Shown here piece by piece: positions 2,127 through 34,429 of a stretch of DNA of 34,429 nucleotides. How positions within the stretch are numbered: position 1 is the stretch's first letter; each line of letters begins with the position of its first letter. The notes below the pieces were generated by a model. It did no database searches. It worked only from the letters and a program-made list of their open reading frames with translations, and was not told the DNA's origin. A program made the position numbers and the translations under genes. This DNA is from Flavisolibacter sp. (GTDB lineage Bacteria > Bacteroidota > Bacteroidia > Chitinophagales > Chitinophagaceae), in NCBI GenBank assembly GCA_028288675.1, contig JAQBNG010000053.1:1-34429 (forward strand), written 5' to 3'.

Positions 2127-2270
2127 TAAATGTTGGATAATGAATGTTGAATTTTTTGATACCCGGCAACAGTAATACTATGAATCGTCGATTGCACAGT
2201 TTATGCTGAGGCCTCCGAAGTACACTCTTCAACGTTCAGAACATTATTCGACATAACATTCAACATTCAA
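2127..2270. repeat. Inverted heptad repeats between ureidopropionase and preT genes
   Basis: Starting directly after the tga stop, 2128-2155 reads as 7-bp units TAAATGT, TGGATAA, TGAATGT, TGAATTT. The opposite strand of 2228-2269 reads as units TGAATGT, TGAATGT, TATGTCG, AATAATG, TTCTGAA, CGTTGAA. The two arms are therefore degenerate inverted copies with the same 7-bp period. They enclose about 70 bp that holds a copy of the CACTCTT intergenic repeat. The right arm runs to within a few bases of the preT start. No ORF is enclosed. Confidence 0.6.
2158..2240 (+). repeat. Intergenic repeat family with CACTCTTnnA core, copy 1
   Basis: Bases 2192-2229 match 24104-24141 with two mismatches over 38 bp, including TTGCACAGTTTATGCTGAGG and CCGAAGTACACTCTT. 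The left part, ACCCGGCaACAGTAATACTAT, resembles the left parts of the copies at 9776 and 24070. Non-coding and nested inside the inverted heptad arms. Confidence 0.6.
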
Positions 2271-7597: not shown

Positions 7598-8407
7598 ATG
7601 GCGGATTTTTTTAAAGATAAAGTAGCAGTAGTTACAGGCGGAACCGATGGCATTGGAAAAGCATTGGTAGAGCTATTGTTGATGCAAGGCGCCAAAGTAG
7701 CGACTTGTGGCCGGCACCAGGATAAACTGTATCGCTTACAATCCGACTTTCCCTCCTACCCTTTGCATGCGGTTTTAGCTGATGTTAGTAACGAAAATGA
7801 TTGCCGTCATTTTATTGAATCTACCATACAAGTTTTTGGCGGGATAGATATATTAATTAATAATGCAGGGGTTTCTATGAGGGCCTTATTGAAAGACACG
7901 TCTGCCGATGTCATCAAAAAAGTTATGGAGATCAACTTCTTTGGTTCAGTGTACTGCACCAAGTTTTCGTTGAATTCCATCGTAGAAAGAAAAGGCTCTA
8001 TTGTAGGCGTATCATCTATAGCAGGCTACCGGGGATTACCGGGCCGCAGTGGTTATTCCGCATCCAAATTTGCTTTGCAGGGCTGGCTGGAAGCAATTCG
8101 TACCGAGCTGCTGGATGATGACGTTCATGTAATGTGGGTGTGTCCTGGATTCACTGCTTCTAACATTAGAAACGCGGCTTTAAATAAAGATGGTAATGCA
8201 CAGGGCGAAAGTCCGTTGGATGAAGGCAAGCTAATGCCACCGGGTGAAGTAGCTGAAGAAATTTTACAGGCAATAAGAAAACGAAAACGAACACTGGTGC
8301 TAACCTTCACCGGCAAGCAAACGGTTTTCATGAATAAATTTTTCCCTTCCTGGTCGGATAAATTAGTGAAGAACTTTTTTTTTAAGGACGGAAGGCTGAT
8401 AAAATGA
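7598..8407 (+). CDS. Short-chain dehydrogenase/reductase (classical SDR)
   Basis: NAD(P)-dependent oxidoreductase of 269 aa. The cofactor-binding TGGTDGIGKA spans residues 13-22, NNAG is at 88-91, catalytic Ser140 is in GVSSIAGYRG, and the Tyr153/Lys157 pair is in GYSASKFAL. PG at about 190 (WVCPGF) is the usual strand after the active site. The C-terminal segment (TFTGKQTVFMNKFFPSWSDKL) resembles the membrane-proximal tail of DHRS7-like or short-chain acyl-reductase SDRs, so a lipid or steroid-like substrate is possible but not shown. Own promoter; ends 14 bp before the inverted heptad element. Confidence 0.88.
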   Translation: MADFFKDKVAVVTGGTDGIGKALVELLLMQGAKVATCGRHQDKLYRLQSDFPSYPLHAVLADVSNENDCRHFIESTIQVFGGIDILINNAGVSMRALLKDTSADVIKKVMEINFFGSVYCTKFSLNSIVERKGSIVGVSSIAGYRGLPGRSGYSASKFALQGWLEAIRTELLDDDVHVMWVCPGFTASNIRNAALNKDGNAQGESPLDEGKLMPPGEVAEEILQAIRKRKRTLVLTFTGKQTVFMNKFFPSWSDKLVKNFFFKDGRLIK

Positions 8408-8420
8408 TTTCGGTTTTTGA

Positions 8421-8879
8421 GTTTCGGGTTTCGGGTTCTTTATTGTAACATTCTTTTTATGGCAACCATTACTCGCTTTGAAGATTTAGAAATTTGGTTA
8501 TCGGCCAGGGAGTTTGCAAAAGCAATATTTCAGACTTATACATCTTCTGAAAAATTCAATAAAGATTTTGAATTAAAGAATCAAATTAATTCTTCTTCAG
8601 GTTCTGTTATGGATAATATTGCCGAAGGCTTTGAAAGAGGCAGCAGAAATGAATTTGTCAATTTTTTATCCTTTGGCAAAGCATCTGCCGCAGAATCAAA
8701 ATCTCAACTTTATCGAGCCTTGGATCGTATTTACATATCGCAAAATGAATTTGAAAGTTTATATTTAAAAGCAGATACGGTTTGCAAAAAAATTGGTGCT
8801 TTCATGAAATATTTAAACAGTACAGACCACCAAGGAAGCAAGTTTAAAAACAGAACGGCCCCAACCCGAAACCCGAAAC
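8421..8879. mobile_element. Putative heptad-ended element carrying a four-helix-bundle protein gene
   Basis: A 17-bp perfect inverted repeat encloses the four-helix-bundle gene: GTTTCGGGTTTCGGGTT at 8421-8437 and its exact complement at 8863-8879. Each arm is a tandem 7-bp repeat (GTTTCGG twice on the left; CCGAAAC, CCGAAAC, CCTAAAC on the right). The right arm continues degenerately to about 8893 (CACAAAT). The stop and last residues of the protein (TRNPKP) are encoded in the right arm. Proteins of this family are known from intervening sequences in 23S rRNA, whose ends pair into a stem. This copy sits between protein genes. No target-site duplication was identified. Confidence 0.55.
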
Positions 8880-8884
8880 CCTAA
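8459..8884 (+). CDS. Four-helix-bundle protein (23S rRNA intervening-sequence protein family)
   Basis: The ATG at 8459 gives 141 aa starting MATITRFEDLEIWLSAREFA, the typical opening of the family (TIGR02436-like). The frame is open further upstream to 8417, but that extension translates the left heptad arm and is not credible as protein. The conserved core NINSSSGSVMDNIAEGFERGSRNEFVNFLSFGKASAAESKSQLYRA is visible as NIAEGFERGS at about 58-67 and FGKASAAESKSQL at about 77-89. The protein is expected to fold as four helices and assemble as a pentamer. Its function is unknown. The C-terminal tail NRTAPTRNPKP is unstructured and encoded by the inverted repeat. It lies in an independent element rather than an operon: SDR upstream, DUF62 enzyme downstream. 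Confidence 0.85.
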   Translation: MATITRFEDLEIWLSAREFAKAIFQTYTSSEKFNKDFELKNQINSSSGSVMDNIAEGFERGSRNEFVNFLSFGKASAAESKSQLYRALDRIYISQNEFESLYLKADTVCKKIGAFMKYLNSTDHQGSKFKNRTAPTRNPKP

Positions 8885-8898
8885 ACCACAAATTACTC

Positions 8899-9726
8899 AT
8901 GCCTTTAGTTACCCTAACATCAGACATCGGCGAGCAGGATTATCTTGCTGGTGCAGTAAAGGGAAGACTGTTGCGCATTAACCCGGAGTTTCAGATTATC
9001 GACATTACTCATAAACTTTCCCCCTTTAATTATCCGCAGGCATCTTATGTATGCCGCAATGCCATTAAAAATTTTCCCGAGTTTACTTATCATATCATAT
9101 TGGTAAACCTGTTTGAAACAAAGCCGGAACAACTACTGTTTGCATTTTATAAAGACCAGTATATTATCTGTGCCGACAATGGCTTGCTAAGTATGATCAT
9201 CGAAGAAAAGCCGGAAATGGTTATTGGTATTCCGCTTGAAAAAAGCGCCATCAAAAACACGCTGTATTGTATGGATGTGGCAGGCAAAGCCATTACTCAA
9301 TTAACCAATGGAGAGCCGGTACAAAATATAGGTATTCCCGATCCGCCTTACCTTGAAAAGCACCCCCTGCGGCCAACACTTGGAGAAGATTGGATAGAAG
9401 GACAGATCATTTTCATCGACAATTTCGAGAACGTGATCGTCAACATTACACAAGACCAGTTTGAACGCCAGCGCAGGGGCCGGAAATTTAAAATTATGTT
9501 TCGCCGCGATGAAATTATCGAGCGCATCAGCGGTTCTTATGCCGATGTATCGCAGGGCGAAATGCTCGTGCTGTTTAACAGCGCCGGCTACCTGGAAATT
9601 GCCATCAACAAAGGAAATGCCGCCGGCCTGTTTGGCTTAAAAGGCTACAGCGAGAGTAGCCAGGCCATGCCTACTGTTATGCAGGCCCGCTTGTTCTATC
9701 AAACGGTAAAAGTTTTTTTTGAATGA
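8899..9726 (+). CDS. SAM hydroxide adenosyltransferase family protein (DUF62), divergent
   Basis: 275 aa. Two-domain architecture of the S-adenosyl-L-methionine hydroxide adenosyltransferase/chlorinase/fluorinase superfamily. The N-terminus LTSDIGEQDYLAGAVKG corresponds to the TDFG-DxYVG motif, followed by IIDITHKLSPF and CADNGLLSMI (91-100). The C-terminal domain contains the ADNG-partner segment IIFIDNFENVIVNIT (about 169-183) and GSYADVSQGEMLVLFNSAGYLEIAINKGNAA. Family members hydrolyse SAM to adenosine and methionine. Residues 64-80 (YHIILVNLFETKPEQLL) occupy the place of the family's VDPGVGT-R motif but lack the Asp and Arg of the known Asp-Arg-His triad, so activity is uncertain. The gene starts 14 bp after the four-helix-bundle stop. 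Confidence 0.82.
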   Translation: MPLVTLTSDIGEQDYLAGAVKGRLLRINPEFQIIDITHKLSPFNYPQASYVCRNAIKNFPEFTYHIILVNLFETKPEQLLFAFYKDQYIICADNGLLSMIIEEKPEMVIGIPLEKSAIKNTLYCMDVAGKAITQLTNGEPVQNIGIPDPPYLEKHPLRPTLGEDWIEGQIIFIDNFENVIVNITQDQFERQRRGRKFKIMFRRDEIIERISGSYADVSQGEMLVLFNSAGYLEIAINKGNAAGLFGLKGYSESSQAMPTVMQARLFYQTVKVFFE

Positions 9727-19687: not shown

Positions 19688-20707
19688 TTAGATAATGTTA
19701 ACTTCTCTTTCCAGCTCAATACCGAATTTGTTTTTTACTGACTGCAAAATCTCTTCGCTTAAGTTATAAATTTCACTGCCTGAAGCATTTCCATAATTCA
19801 CAAGTACCAATGCTTGCTTCGAATAACAACCGGCATCTCCCTTACGATAGCCCTTCCATCCACATTGTTCAATTAGCCAACCCGCCGGCACTTTCACATG
19901 CATACTATCAAATGGGAAGTGAGGAATATTAGGATGCTGGCTCTGCAATTGTTCAAACAGTTTTTTATCAACCTGCGGATTTTTAAAAAAGCTTCCTGCA
20001 TTTCCAATCACCCTTGGGTCAGGCAGTTTTGAAGAACGAATATTGATGACTGCCCGGGAGATAGCTTTGATACTGAGTTCTGTTACTCCCATCTTTTCCA
20101 ACTCCTGTTGAATGGCGCCATAGCTTGTATTAAAAACATGCTTTTTATGTAGCCGGTAAGTAACACTTATAATAACAAATTCACCTTTGTATTTATGTTT
20201 AAAAACACTTTCACGATAACCAAATTCACAATCATTTACTGTAAACTTCCTTGTGTGTTTGTCTTTTAAATGATAGGCTTCCGCCTCATGAAAAATGTCT
20301 TTGACTTCTACCCCATAAGCACCAATATTCTGCATGGGTGATGCACCGACGTTGCCGGGAATAAGCGATAAGTTTTCCATGCCTGCAAAACCATTCTCCA
20401 CACAATACATAACCAGGTTATGCCAGTTCTCCCCTGCCCCGGCTTTTACATAAATATGTTCTGCATCTTCATTCACTACTTCAATTCCGCCAATTTCATT
20501 TTTCAATACAAGGCCATCAAAATCCTGCGTCAGCAATATATTACTGCCACCGCCGAGGATAAATTTTGGATTTTGAATTTTGAATTTTGGATTTCCCAAT
20601 ATCTCTTCTAATTCAGCAACCGTTTTGAACGTAGCTAAGTATTTTGCCATGGCATAAATGCCGAAACTGTTATACGGTTGAAGCGAAATATTTTCACGAA
20701 TTTGCAT
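19688..20707 (-). CDS. murB: UDP-N-acetylenolpyruvoylglucosamine reductase
   Basis: 339-aa cytosolic FAD enzyme that reduces UDP-GlcNAc-enolpyruvate to UDP-MurNAc in peptidoglycan synthesis. FAD-binding domain: LGGGSNILLTQDFDG (51-65) and IPGNVGASPMQNIGAYG (116-132). The substrate-site Arg is Arg165 in FGYRESVFK, the proton-donor Ser is Ser239 in NAGSFFKNP, and the C-terminal acidic residue lies in ELEREV (331-336). The length fits the E. coli-type (type I) enzyme. Residues 39-49 (NPKFKIQNPKF) are encoded by a (TTTTGRA)n heptad array, an oddity described separately. The enzyme looks intact. Divergent from the oxidoreductase gene, with only 19 bp between start codons. Confidence 0.95.
   Translation of the reverse strand: MQIRENISLQPYNSFGIYAMAKYLATFKTVAELEEILGNPKFKIQNPKFILGGGSNILLTQDFDGLVLKNEIGGIEVVNEDAEHIYVKAGAGENWHNLVMYCVENGFAGMENLSLIPGNVGASPMQNIGAYGVEVKDIFHEAEAYHLKDKHTRKFTVNDCEFGYRESVFKHKYKGEFVIISVTYRLHKKHVFNTSYGAIQQELEKMGVTELSIKAISRAVINIRSSKLPDPRVIGNAGSFFKNPQVDKKLFEQLQSQHPNIPHFPFDSMHVKVPAGWLIEQCGWKGYRKGDAGCYSKQALVLVNYGNASGSEIYNLSEEILQSVKNKFGIELEREVNII
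20564..20598. repeat. In-frame heptad tandem array inside murB
   Basis: Plus-strand units TTTTGGA, TTTTGAA, TTTTGAA, TTTTGGA (20564-20591) followed by a degenerate TTTCCCA. On the coding strand they specify PKFKIQNPKF between the first helix and the LGGGSN flavin-binding loop, a region of variable sequence in the family. The 7-bp period is not a multiple of three, so successive units are read in shifting frames. Confidence 0.7.
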
Positions 20708-25626: not shown

Positions 25627-25749
25627 ATAAGCAATAGGCAACAGGCAATAAGCAATTGCAAAATAAGGCAGTAGTAGCTAGTTTTCAGTTTGCAATTTAT
25701 GGGTAACAGCGAACCGTCAACTGCTTATTGCCTATTGACCATTGCCCCT
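25627..25749. repeat. Inverted heptad repeat pair without ORF
   Basis: Left arm of 7-bp units ATAAGCA, ATAGGCA, ACAGGCA, ATAAGCA, ATTGCAA (25627-25661). Right arm TGCTTAT, TGCCTAT, TGACCAT, TGCCCCT (25722-25749), the complement of the left units in order with a few changes. The 60-bp core encodes nothing visible. It lies in the divergent region between the DUF4258 gene and mtaB. Confidence 0.7.
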
Positions 25750-32163: not shown

Positions 32164-34429
32164 ATGAAAAACTTTACCCTTTTTAGTCGGCTTCTGTTAC
32201 CTGCACGCCTCCGGAAATTTTTCACTGTATGTATGCTGGGCTGCTGTATAACGGCCATGGCAAACCCTGATAGTGATTCATTACAAGGAGCTATAACAGG
32301 CCAGCATCTTTTTGCTGTTGTATTTACTCAACAACCCTCGCCGGCCACTATTTGCGAAGGCGGTAGTGCAGACTTTAGCGTTGTTGCTACAGGCAGCGCC
32401 TTACTAAGCTACCGATGGCAGGTAAGTACAGAGGGCGGCGCCACCTGGATTAACTTAAGTAACGATGCAATTTACAGTGGTGTATCAACTCCCAACCTTG
32501 CGGCAAGTGGCATTGCAGCTGTAATGAATGGCTATCAGTACCGCTGTGTTGTGTCAGATGGTAGTTCTGCTAATTCGGCTTCAGCCTTACTTACAGTGAA
32601 TCCCGCGCCTGCTGTTCAATCGGCTAACATTGGCGTGCAGGTTTGTATCAATGGTTCGGCTACTGTTACAGCATCTTCTTATGCAGGAGTAGCTTATCAA
32701 TGGCAGGTAAATACAGGTTCCGGTTTTATCAATGTAGCAAATGGTGGCATTTATGCAGGTGCTACTACTTCCATGCTAAATATCACCGGCGTTCCCGCTG
32801 CTATGGAAGGCTATTTATATCGTTACATAGCTACAAATACTACAACTGGTTGCTCAGCCACCAGTGCACTTGATACACTTCATGTGTTGCCTTACGCTGC
32901 TATTTCGCAACAGCCTGTGGCTGCAACGGTCTGCCCTGGTGCTAACGCCAGTTTTACAATTACAGCGACCGGGGCCTCAGCCATTAAATGGCAGGTAAGC
33001 ACCAATGGCTCAACCTGGACAGATGTGCCCAACAATGCAATGTACTCAGGTGCCTCAGGCACTACACTAAGTATTAGCGGCGCTAACTTATCAATGAACA
33101 ATTACAGGTACCGCGTCATTTTATACAATGCTTTGGCCTGCCTGGTCTCTTCAAATACTGTTTTTCTTTTTGTGCGACCCTTTACCAATATTACCGTGCA
33201 ACCGGCTAATACAACGGTTTGTGCTACCAATACAGCAAGCTTCAGCGTAACCGCTACGGGCAATACCCTTACTTACCAATGGCAAACAGACAATGGAAGC
33301 AACGGCGTTTCATGGACCAATATCACTCCGGGTGGTACATCCTCTACGCTTAACCGCACTAACGTATCCATGTCAATGAATGGTCACCGGTTCCGGGTAA
33401 TTGTTACCGGCTTTTGCGGAAGTTTAATATCTGCCGAGGCTACGCTTCAAACTAAGAGAGGTACCTGGCTGGGTGTTACAAGCACCGACTGGCATACAGC
33501 CAGTAACTGGTGCGGTGGTGTGCCTGATAATACAACTGATGTCCTCATCCCGGAAGGAGCACCGAACATGCCTGATATTCTTTCCGGCATTGGCTATTCC
33601 AGAAGCGTTACTATAGAGCCTGCCGCAAGCCTTACAATTAGTGGCGGCGTAACACAAATGAGCGGACCATTTTCTCTTGATGGGACGGTGGCGTATACCG
33701 GCTTTGCCAACCAACAGGTGCTTCCGGCTTCACACGGATCGCTGAAGGTTGATGGAAGTGGTAACAAATACCTGCAGACCTCCACAGATGTTTATCATGA
33801 CCTTGTACTCGGTGGAGTAGCCAAACTCGTTACCGCTAACTATATAGTAACGATGAAAGCGGGGAGTAATCCAATCAGCGGATTGGACCTTGCCGGTGCT
33901 TCCACAAGTTGGATCGTAACCGGTAATGGCACTGCTGGTGCAGCCAATACAGGACTGGGTGGAATGCAGTATGAAGAAGTGCGGCCGCAGGATGGGAATG
34001 TGATCTTCCCGGTAGGTCCAACTGACAATACCTATAATCCTTTATTCCTCCAAAACAAAGGTGTGACGGATCGCTTTACGGTGGCAGTAAATGATCAGCG
34101 CATTCCCGGCAGTTTCGATGGGCGAAGCATTAACCGTACCTGGAAAGTAACAGAAGGCATAGCAGGTGGAAGCAAGGTGTCGCTTGATCTTAAATGGAAT
34201 AAGCCAGAGGAACAGTCGATGTTTGATAGCGCTGATGTACTCATGGTCCGTTCAGAAGGTTCTATGATAGTGGAAACCAGGATGGTTAATACTCCAACTA
34301 ACCGCCCATTTGCCAGGGTTAGCGCCAGTGATTTTTTGTCACTAACCGAATTTAGTGTGCAAACTTTTAAAGCAGAGGACCTGGTGCCGTTACCTGTAAA
34401 ACTCATATCATTCACAGCTGAAAAGAAAA
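32164..34429 (+). CDS. Secreted multi-Ig-module protein, probable T9SS cargo (3' truncated)
   Basis: The frame is open from the ATG at 32164 through the window end (755 codons seen). A long signal peptide ends near ITAMANPDSDS. Four tandem modules of about 90 aa follow, at about 32326-32600, 32601-32888, 32889-33176 and 33177-33450. Each opens with QQP-like text and a Cys (TICEGG, QVCINGS, TVCPGAN, TVCATNT), contains Y-x-WQV or KWQV in mid-module, and ends in YRxxV before a second Cys or strand. This is the Ig/PKD-like pattern of gliding-type Bacteroidota adhesins. From about 33460, GTWLGVTSTDWHTASNWCGG and VPDNTTDVLIP start a beta-rich region. The last residues, LVPLPVKLISFTAE, are the usual linker just before a type IX secretion C-terminal sorting domain, which would lie beyond the window. 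Surface adhesion or matrix role is inferred. Confidence 0.85.
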   Translation, partial: MKNFTLFSRLLLPARLRKFFTVCMLGCCITAMANPDSDSLQGAITGQHLFAVVFTQQPSPATICEGGSADFSVVATGSALLSYRWQVSTEGGATWINLSNDAIYSGVSTPNLAASGIAAVMNGYQYRCVVSDGSSANSASALLTVNPAPAVQSANIGVQVCINGSATVTASSYAGVAYQWQVNTGSGFINVANGGIYAGATTSMLNITGVPAAMEGYLYRYIATNTTTGCSATSALDTLHVLPYAAISQQPVAATVCPGANASFTITATGASAIKWQVSTNGSTWTDVPNNAMYSGASGTTLSISGANLSMNNYRYRVILYNALACLVSSNTVFLFVRPFTNITVQPANTTVCATNTASFSVTATGNTLTYQWQTDNGSNGVSWTNITPGGTSSTLNRTNVSMSMNGHRFRVIVTGFCGSLISAEATLQTKRGTWLGVTSTDWHTASNWCGGVPDNTTDVLIPEGAPNMPDILSGIGYSRSVTIEPAASLTISGGVTQMSGPFSLDGTVAYTGFANQQVLPASHGSLKVDGSGNKYLQTSTDVYHDLVLGGVAKLVTANYIVTMKAGSNPISGLDLAGASTSWIVTGNGTAGAANTGLGGMQYEEVRPQDGNVIFPVGPTDNTYNPLFLQNKGVTDRFTVAVNDQRIPGSFDGRSINRTWKVTEGIAGGSKVSLDLKWNKPEEQSMFDSADVLMVRSEGSMIVETRMVNTPTNRPFARVSASDFLSLTEFSVQTFKAEDLVPLPVKLISFTAEKK

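Follow-up and report, generated by a model that had tools for sequence, protein, structure and literature searches.

A PF05635 (S23p) gene between inverted heptad arrays in Flavisolibacter sp. points to a candidate family of mobile elements with repeat-array ends

The DNA analysed here, which we refer to as the window, is a stretch of 34,429 nucleotides of a Flavisolibacter sp. genome (assembly GCA_028288675.1, contig JAQBNG010000053.1). Between two protein genes of the window, encoding an SDR and a SAM_HAT protein and lying outside rRNA, we found a small gene enclosed by inverted arrays of a 7-nt word (Table 1). Its product, a four-helix-bundle protein of the S23/IVP type, matched the PF05635 profile with an E value of 1.2e-28 and 99.9 bits, above the curated cut-off of 33.8, and no other Pfam family was matched at E values up to 0.001. 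A possible alternative start codon, TTG, is present at 8417. Over 31 nt the two arms (8407-8437 and 8863-8893) are 84% complementary, with a perfect 17-bp core in which 8421-8437, GTTTCGGGTTTCGGGTT, pairs with 8863-8879, and TRF found a period of 7 at the left and right flank alike. The first base of the left arm (8407) is the last base of the SDR stop codon, and the right arm ends about 5-6 nt before the ATG of the SAM_HAT gene. The codons for the C-terminal residues of S23p (..TRNPKP and the stop) lie inside the right arm. The initial annotation, made from the letters alone, had described both a perfect 17-bp inverted repeat around the gene and a protein whose last residues are encoded in the right arm; each could be read directly from the DNA, and the presence of a PF05635 gene between inverted arms of 7-nt units is confirmed. 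Elsewhere in the window a one-sided heptad array, AATTTTG in 4.7 copies, occupies 20562-20594 within the ORF 19688-20707 on the minus strand.

Table 1. Features of the window that are discussed in the text
Feature	Coordinates	Strand	Remarks
SDR gene, upstream neighbour	7598..8407	+	ORF list, profile match
Left arm	8407..8437	+	five 7-nt steps, GTT in the inner three
S23p gene, PF05635	8459..8884	+	profile match; ATG at 8459
Right arm, inverted copy	8863..8893	-	read inward, GTT in the inner four of five steps
SAM_HAT gene, downstream neighbour	8899..9726	+	ORF list, profile match; anchor of the empty-site test
Mini-hairpin, GCAATAGG-type arms, 59-nt loop	25631..25745		word matched in the own genome by S23 locus L017 (score 20)
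Weaker mini-hairpin, TGAATGTTGAAT arms, between two ORFs	2141..2269		7-nt periodic arms

Inverted arms were found at most PF05635 loci. For 42 family loci the inverted-flank score averaged 21.3, compared with 10.5 for 1720 mismatched flank pairs, and 36 of the 42 lay above the 95% point and 24 above the 99% point of this null. In a larger set of 101 loci with both flanks, 91 exceeded the 95% point and 48 the 99% point of mismatched pairs. Self-similarity of the arms was greatest at lags 7 (0.46) and 14 (0.42), with 0.33 at lag 8 and 0.26-0.28 at the rest. Arms were then called with fixed thresholds, an inverted score of at least 14 together with a periodicity of at least 0.45. By this measure inverted arms with a period of 6-9 nt were present at 156 of 183 scored PF05635 loci, a number in which L174, L216 and L236 are the same places as L034, L100 and L099 and are counted twice. 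Arms were called at 83 of 100 loci in the genus and order (60 further places of the genus sample being added from among the matches listed), at 4 of 5 loci on cyanobacterial plasmids (6 of 10 plasmid matches were taken, including 5 of the 6 cyanobacterial ones), and at 69 of 78 loci, of which 77 came from a further sample that retained the best 80 of 575 relatives and one from a Riemerella plasmid. A planctomycete-centred set held 37 loci among the matches listed; of these 30 could be scored, 5 being cut and 2 having short flanks, and 25 of the 30 had arms. The arm counts exclude L033 (at a palindromic contig end), L011 (one half of L017, a split gene) and loci with short flanks. The armed loci are spread over phyla. 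None of 30 other genes of the same loci was called with arms, and in 400 kb of genome G003 a single ORF of 286 was called, itself a PF05635 gene. The window's own genome has 18 PF05635 matches, and the family is present in at least 33 of 38 genomes in a set of relatives that includes the own genome; a search of the phage collection gave no match for it. The proposal that this family marks units with inverted short-period ends outside rRNA was thus upheld by the flanks of its other members. The accompanying claim of a fixed 7-bp period was not, since the period was 7 at 134 of the 156 armed loci and 8, 9 or 6 at the remaining 22 (17, 4 and 1, respectively).

An S23 unit whose arms are of the TTAGC type (L168, 1492-1851) lies between cas6 and cas4 on a Pseudanabaena plasmid; in the available text of a CRISPR survey, a figure legend that deals with CRISPR association names a 23S rRNA IVP (PMC10910872). 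The word of the S23 gene on a Nostoc edaphicum plasmid (L167 record), AGGGAAC, recurs as an array about 14 kb away, and is also found on a second Nostoc plasmid whose sampled S23 unit has a different word.

We found that word and period cluster with protein clade in a tree of 100 proteins, which is built on few columns, has many weak forks and gives meaningless positions to its two longest branches, L047 and L098. The words of 7-nt clades are GTGAAAC, GTTTGGG, AGCTNNG, GGTGAAT and GGCAGTA, and those of 8-nt clades are GTTGATAA, GTTCACAA and GATTAGCT. The heptad had initially been described as variable, which is true between protein clades but not within a clade, where it is nearly constant. 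When clades were defined by us from the tree and the words, left arms matched their own right arms with a mean of 21.8, the right arms of clade mates with 19.8 and those of other clades with 10.2. The advantage of the own partner over clade mates was significant overall (p 2.5e-5) and absent in 2 of 10 clades, the exceptions being GTTTGGG (26.0 versus 27.2) and AGCTNNG (19.1 versus 21.7). Shuffling the order of the units lowered the mean arm match from 21.5 to 18.0, with p<0.05 in 25 of 79 elements, a comparison that is biased because the segment was preselected as the best match.

Two paralogues of G003 at different sites, L107 and L109, are similar from arm to arm and the similarity stops there; their left arms are identical at 28 of 29 positions, with synonymous sites near saturation (pS 0.74). 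Such strong conservation suggests a function for the arms. S23p itself is under purifying selection, with pN/pS of 0.13-0.29 in 16 pairs, mostly with saturated dS. The clade pattern is accounted for by arm and gene descending together as a single unit, and the match of word to clade would equally follow from plain co-inheritance. Words of S23 clades were also observed in other settings. In L010 an anmK-like ORF beside an S23 unit contains in-frame TTGGCAA-type and then CCCCAAA-type heptads (2700-2768), which are the words of two other S23 clades, and contig G015:C1 has one-directional arrays of the 8-nt GTTCAC word near 1854733-1855218 and 5158785-5159022, with about 60 and about 30 units.

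Consecutive units were counted in 155 elements, a unit being accepted when it had at least 3 of 4 core matches. Five units were present in 120 of 310 arms, four in 86 and six in 31. Five was the mode at every period, with 100 of 268 arms at period 7, 14 of 34 at period 8 and 6 of 8 at period 9. The closest solved relatives of the window protein, 2GSC and 2RLD, have five chains in each entry, and the match of five units to five subunits is suggestive. Arms with four units count against a five-fold reading, as do the arms of the gene-less hairpins described below, whose mode is four (26 of 64). The strand read inward is G-rich, G exceeding C in 125 and falling short of it in 10 of 139 left arrays; a single heptad position is G in 90%, in a phase picked for maximal G.

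The window also contains two mini-hairpins that have periodic arms and no gene (Table 1). The best S23 match of the weaker one scored 15 in another genome and 10 in its own. The site of the hairpin at 25631-25745 varies among relatives, several of which have other heptad arrays there. In the stretches scanned, mini-hairpins reach 35 per Mb for G003, 36 for G006, 50 for G014 and 29 for G008, and block shuffles yield 0 or 1 per stretch. They are scarce in the S23-bearing stretches of G015 (0 in 120 kb), G012 (0 in 140 kb) and G013 (1 in 120 kb), and 280 kb of G005, a genome without an S23 match, yielded 2 doubtful and marginal ones; a rise of mini-hairpin density with S23 number is therefore not clean. 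The word of an S23 arm was present in 30 of 34 mini-hairpins from G003, G006, G014 and the window, compared with 0 of 170 shuffled arms, and in 19 of the 34 it was an S23 word of the same genome.

Thirteen GTGAAAC hairpins at separate places of G003 align into a single family, about 80 nt long, that has a common loop. This alignment takes in 13 of 18 hairpins, omitting one of 96 nt, one of 59 nt and three of a 160-nt type that encloses a terminator-like hairpin, and 7 of the 20 places sampled had no hairpin call. The left part of the shared loop resembled the inside end of cognate S23 units with a mean local score of 5.77, compared with 4.72 for shuffles (highest shuffle mean 5.00) and 5.25 for other clades, the last with a cruder window. 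Tandem GTGARAC was found in 9 of 18 genus genomes, namely in 6 of 6 with the cognate gene among the matches listed and 3 of 12 without it, and the GTTCAC word in 5 of 18, in 3 of 3 with the cognate gene among the matches listed and 2 of 15 without it. Genomes that hold a word without a cognate gene among the matches listed count against the proposal made below.

The site of the window unit is empty in relatives. A SAM_HAT protein match was found in 17 of 18 genus genomes, own genome included, and the SDR-SAM_HAT junction could be read in 16 relatives. All 16 lacked an S23 gene and had only a short spacer. The initial annotation had raised the case of syntenic relatives that share the gene without the arms; none of the 16 has the gene at this site, armed or armless. 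The spacer before SAM_HAT in L064, which has no S23 gene at the window's site, holds a one-sided array, CCTAAATTCGAAATTCGAAATT. No target-site duplication was seen by eye at the examined junctions, the compared empty sites not being near-identical, and the unit contains no known transposase or recombinase, S23p being its sole gene. Contig ends of the own genome carry near-identical S23 copies with the GGCAGTA word (L006, L007 and L013), as expected of recent copies breaking an assembly. Many hairpins occupy orthologous sites in G006 and G014, which indicates that movement is not frequent.

Some sites hold different elements in different genomes. At three orthologous sites of G006 and G014 (29949 of G006; 103477 and 109200 of G014) both arms have a different word, and at 109200 two unrelated S23 elements have near-identical left flanks. 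L079 and L102 are one site with two different S23 genes, the arms of L102 falling below threshold, and at 33141 of the G014 stretch a mini-hairpin stands opposite a full S23 element at one site. Elements inverted relative to shared flanks were found in L026 as compared with L096, L031 and L072, and in L005 as compared with L099 and L123. Two further apparent inversions, L068/L108 and L083/L098, were rejected, the strands of L098 and L108 having been misassigned. Word switches could possibly come from repeated use of the same sites or from replacement via existing hairpins. An intergenic site in two related species, L099/L101, likewise has different words or S23 genes.

We consider it probable that 8407-8893 is one copy of a family of DNA mobile elements. 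A full copy would carry S23p as its only gene, with inverted arrays of a short word on its two sides, and a pentameric S23p ring would read the array at either end. Each subunit would take one word, hence about five words per arm, and this reading would mark and pair the ends of the element. The substrate bound by S23p would be the words as DNA, perhaps single-stranded or hairpin, and S23p may itself move the unit. Since the only gene of the unit encodes no known nuclease, cutting and joining would be carried out by a host enzyme. Mini-hairpins with the same word would be non-autonomous, MITE-like derivatives.

The initial annotation had allowed for an RNA unit as well as a DNA unit. In an RNA-level element the arms would pair in the transcript, RNase III would cut the stem, S23p would bind RNA and the unit would spread via RNA. 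We regard this as unlikely, although several observations speak for it. The available text of PMC4990558 describes a Coxiella 23S rRNA intervening sequence (IVS) in which GACAGAT heptads are repeated in tandem ahead of the S23p ORF, the ends form a 28-bp stem and RNase III performs the excision. PF05635 resembles Avd, a protein of diversity-generating retroelements, by sequence and structure according to the available text of PMC10053308, and the predicted RNA of the window unit is closed by its arms (z -4.26). However, G-U wobbles are no commoner on the sense than on the antisense strand: in 175 elements with 5804 paired columns, counted without the duplicate places L174, L216 and L236, wobbles numbered 222 on the sense and 219 on the antisense strand once strands had been corrected (p 0.92), and 223 and 218 before that. 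The strand was corrected for L047, L098, L108, L312, L320, L324 and L325, and the arm counts are strand-independent. Selection on the arms as an RNA stem is thus unsupported by the wobble counts. In addition, the RVT_1 profile found no match in the own genome despite its 18 PF05635 matches, which also sets the unit apart from diversity-generating retroelements. RVT_1 matches were present in only 6 of 18 genus genomes, which argues against a reverse transcriptase as an obligatory partner. Because there is no sense-strand G-U bias and no RVT_1 match in the own genome, DNA is favoured over RNA.

It is also quite unlikely, in our view, that a host HUH transposase (Y1/RAYT-type) moves the hairpins with S23p as its end-binder or passenger, the unit being REPIN-like and non-autonomous. 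In outline, hairpins that accompany a gene of their own do recall REPINs, and PF01797 is found in 14 of 18 genus genomes, but it had no match in G004, G007 and G010, which have at least 3, 5 and 12 PF05635 matches, although these genomes are only 79, 84 and 62% complete, and the complete genome G015, with at least 16 PF05635 matches, has only weak partial PF01797 matches. Host regulation, in which S23p would be a resident regulator acting on intergenic heptad hairpins (as terminators, on RNA stability or on the nucleoid) and nothing moves, would fit the many hairpins kept at orthologous sites, the terminator-like hairpins inside some of them and the purifying selection on the proteins. We hold it to be very unlikely given the site that is empty in 16 of 16 relatives, the near-identical copies L006, L007 and L013 at several places of the own genome, the one mini family at 13 places and the many word systems within one genome. 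Heptamer simple repeats are over-represented in some bacteria according to the available text of PMC4692102, yet that the arrays are slippage microsatellites or chance is next to inconceivable. They occur specifically at the gene (PF05635 loci, 156 of 183; other genes, 0 of 30; ORFs of the 400-kb stretch, 1 of 286), with inverted matched arms, clade-specific words and shared mini loops, and the mismatched-pair, unrelated-gene and whole-stretch controls rule slippage or chance out.

In REPIN/RAYT systems, hairpin units of several word types are dispersed, and the same sequences flank a single dedicated gene. The DNA element family that we favour resembles them in that its gene is flanked by a word dispersed as hairpins (30 of 34, with 19 of 34 in the same genome), and differs in that the gene is PF05635 and not a Y1 (PF01797) transposase and that the arms are tandem short words of element-specific sequence. 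MITEs and their parent transposons have inverted termini and internally shortened, gene-less copies. Both features recur in the window family; unlike MITE and IS-type elements, its full copy is without a known transposase and its termini are periodic arrays. The 23S rRNA IVS of Coxiella, as given in the available text of PMC4990558, shares the protein family, the inverted termini and the tandem heptads. In contrast, the window unit lies between protein genes and not inside an rRNA gene, and its family has dispersed gene-less derivatives and no sense-strand wobble bias.

Heptameric repeats that are mostly intergenic have been described in Xanthomonas (GGGAATC), Nostoc (GGGGA(T/C)T) and Beggiatoaceae (TAACTGA) (PMC4692102, PMC4679880). 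Rehm et al. count 70-75 inverted pairs of GGGAATC heptads in each Xanthomonas genome and give no known role for them (PMC4692102). These repeats share the 7-nt period with the window family; the available text of the two papers draws no link to an S23p gene and leaves their role open. The protein of 2GSC is XCC0516, and the reference list of PMC10053308 gives Xanthomonas campestris as the source of XCC0516. In the literature, of which our coverage was partial, we recognised no tie of intergenic PF05635 genes to heptad arms.

A wider reading, which we advance tentatively and see as close to evenly balanced, is that these units may represent a new class of DNA element, with counted ends of about five copies read by a five-fold ring at one word per subunit. 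In such a class word and protein would drift together, so that a genome would contain many coexisting word systems and each system would have minis of its own. The 23S rRNA IVS and the heptamers of Bacteroidota, Nostoc and Xanthomonas would then be its traces.

Our data indicate that the association of PF05635 genes with inverted short-word arrays is real and general, and it is undescribed as far as a partial literature search reached. Judged from sequence, it is best read as a family of mobile elements, with MITE-like derivatives, whose repeat ends are roughly counted and matched to the protein; by analogy, the family may work in outline like REPIN/RAYT with a different protein. Any word specificity of S23p would be open to simple binding assays. 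If this reading is true, it would provide a role for a widespread protein family that has been named only for rRNA insertions, and an origin for the 23S rRNA insertions that joins them to hitherto unexplained heptameric repeats. If a ring protein recognises the ends by reading a counted word array, this would be a new mode of end definition for an element.
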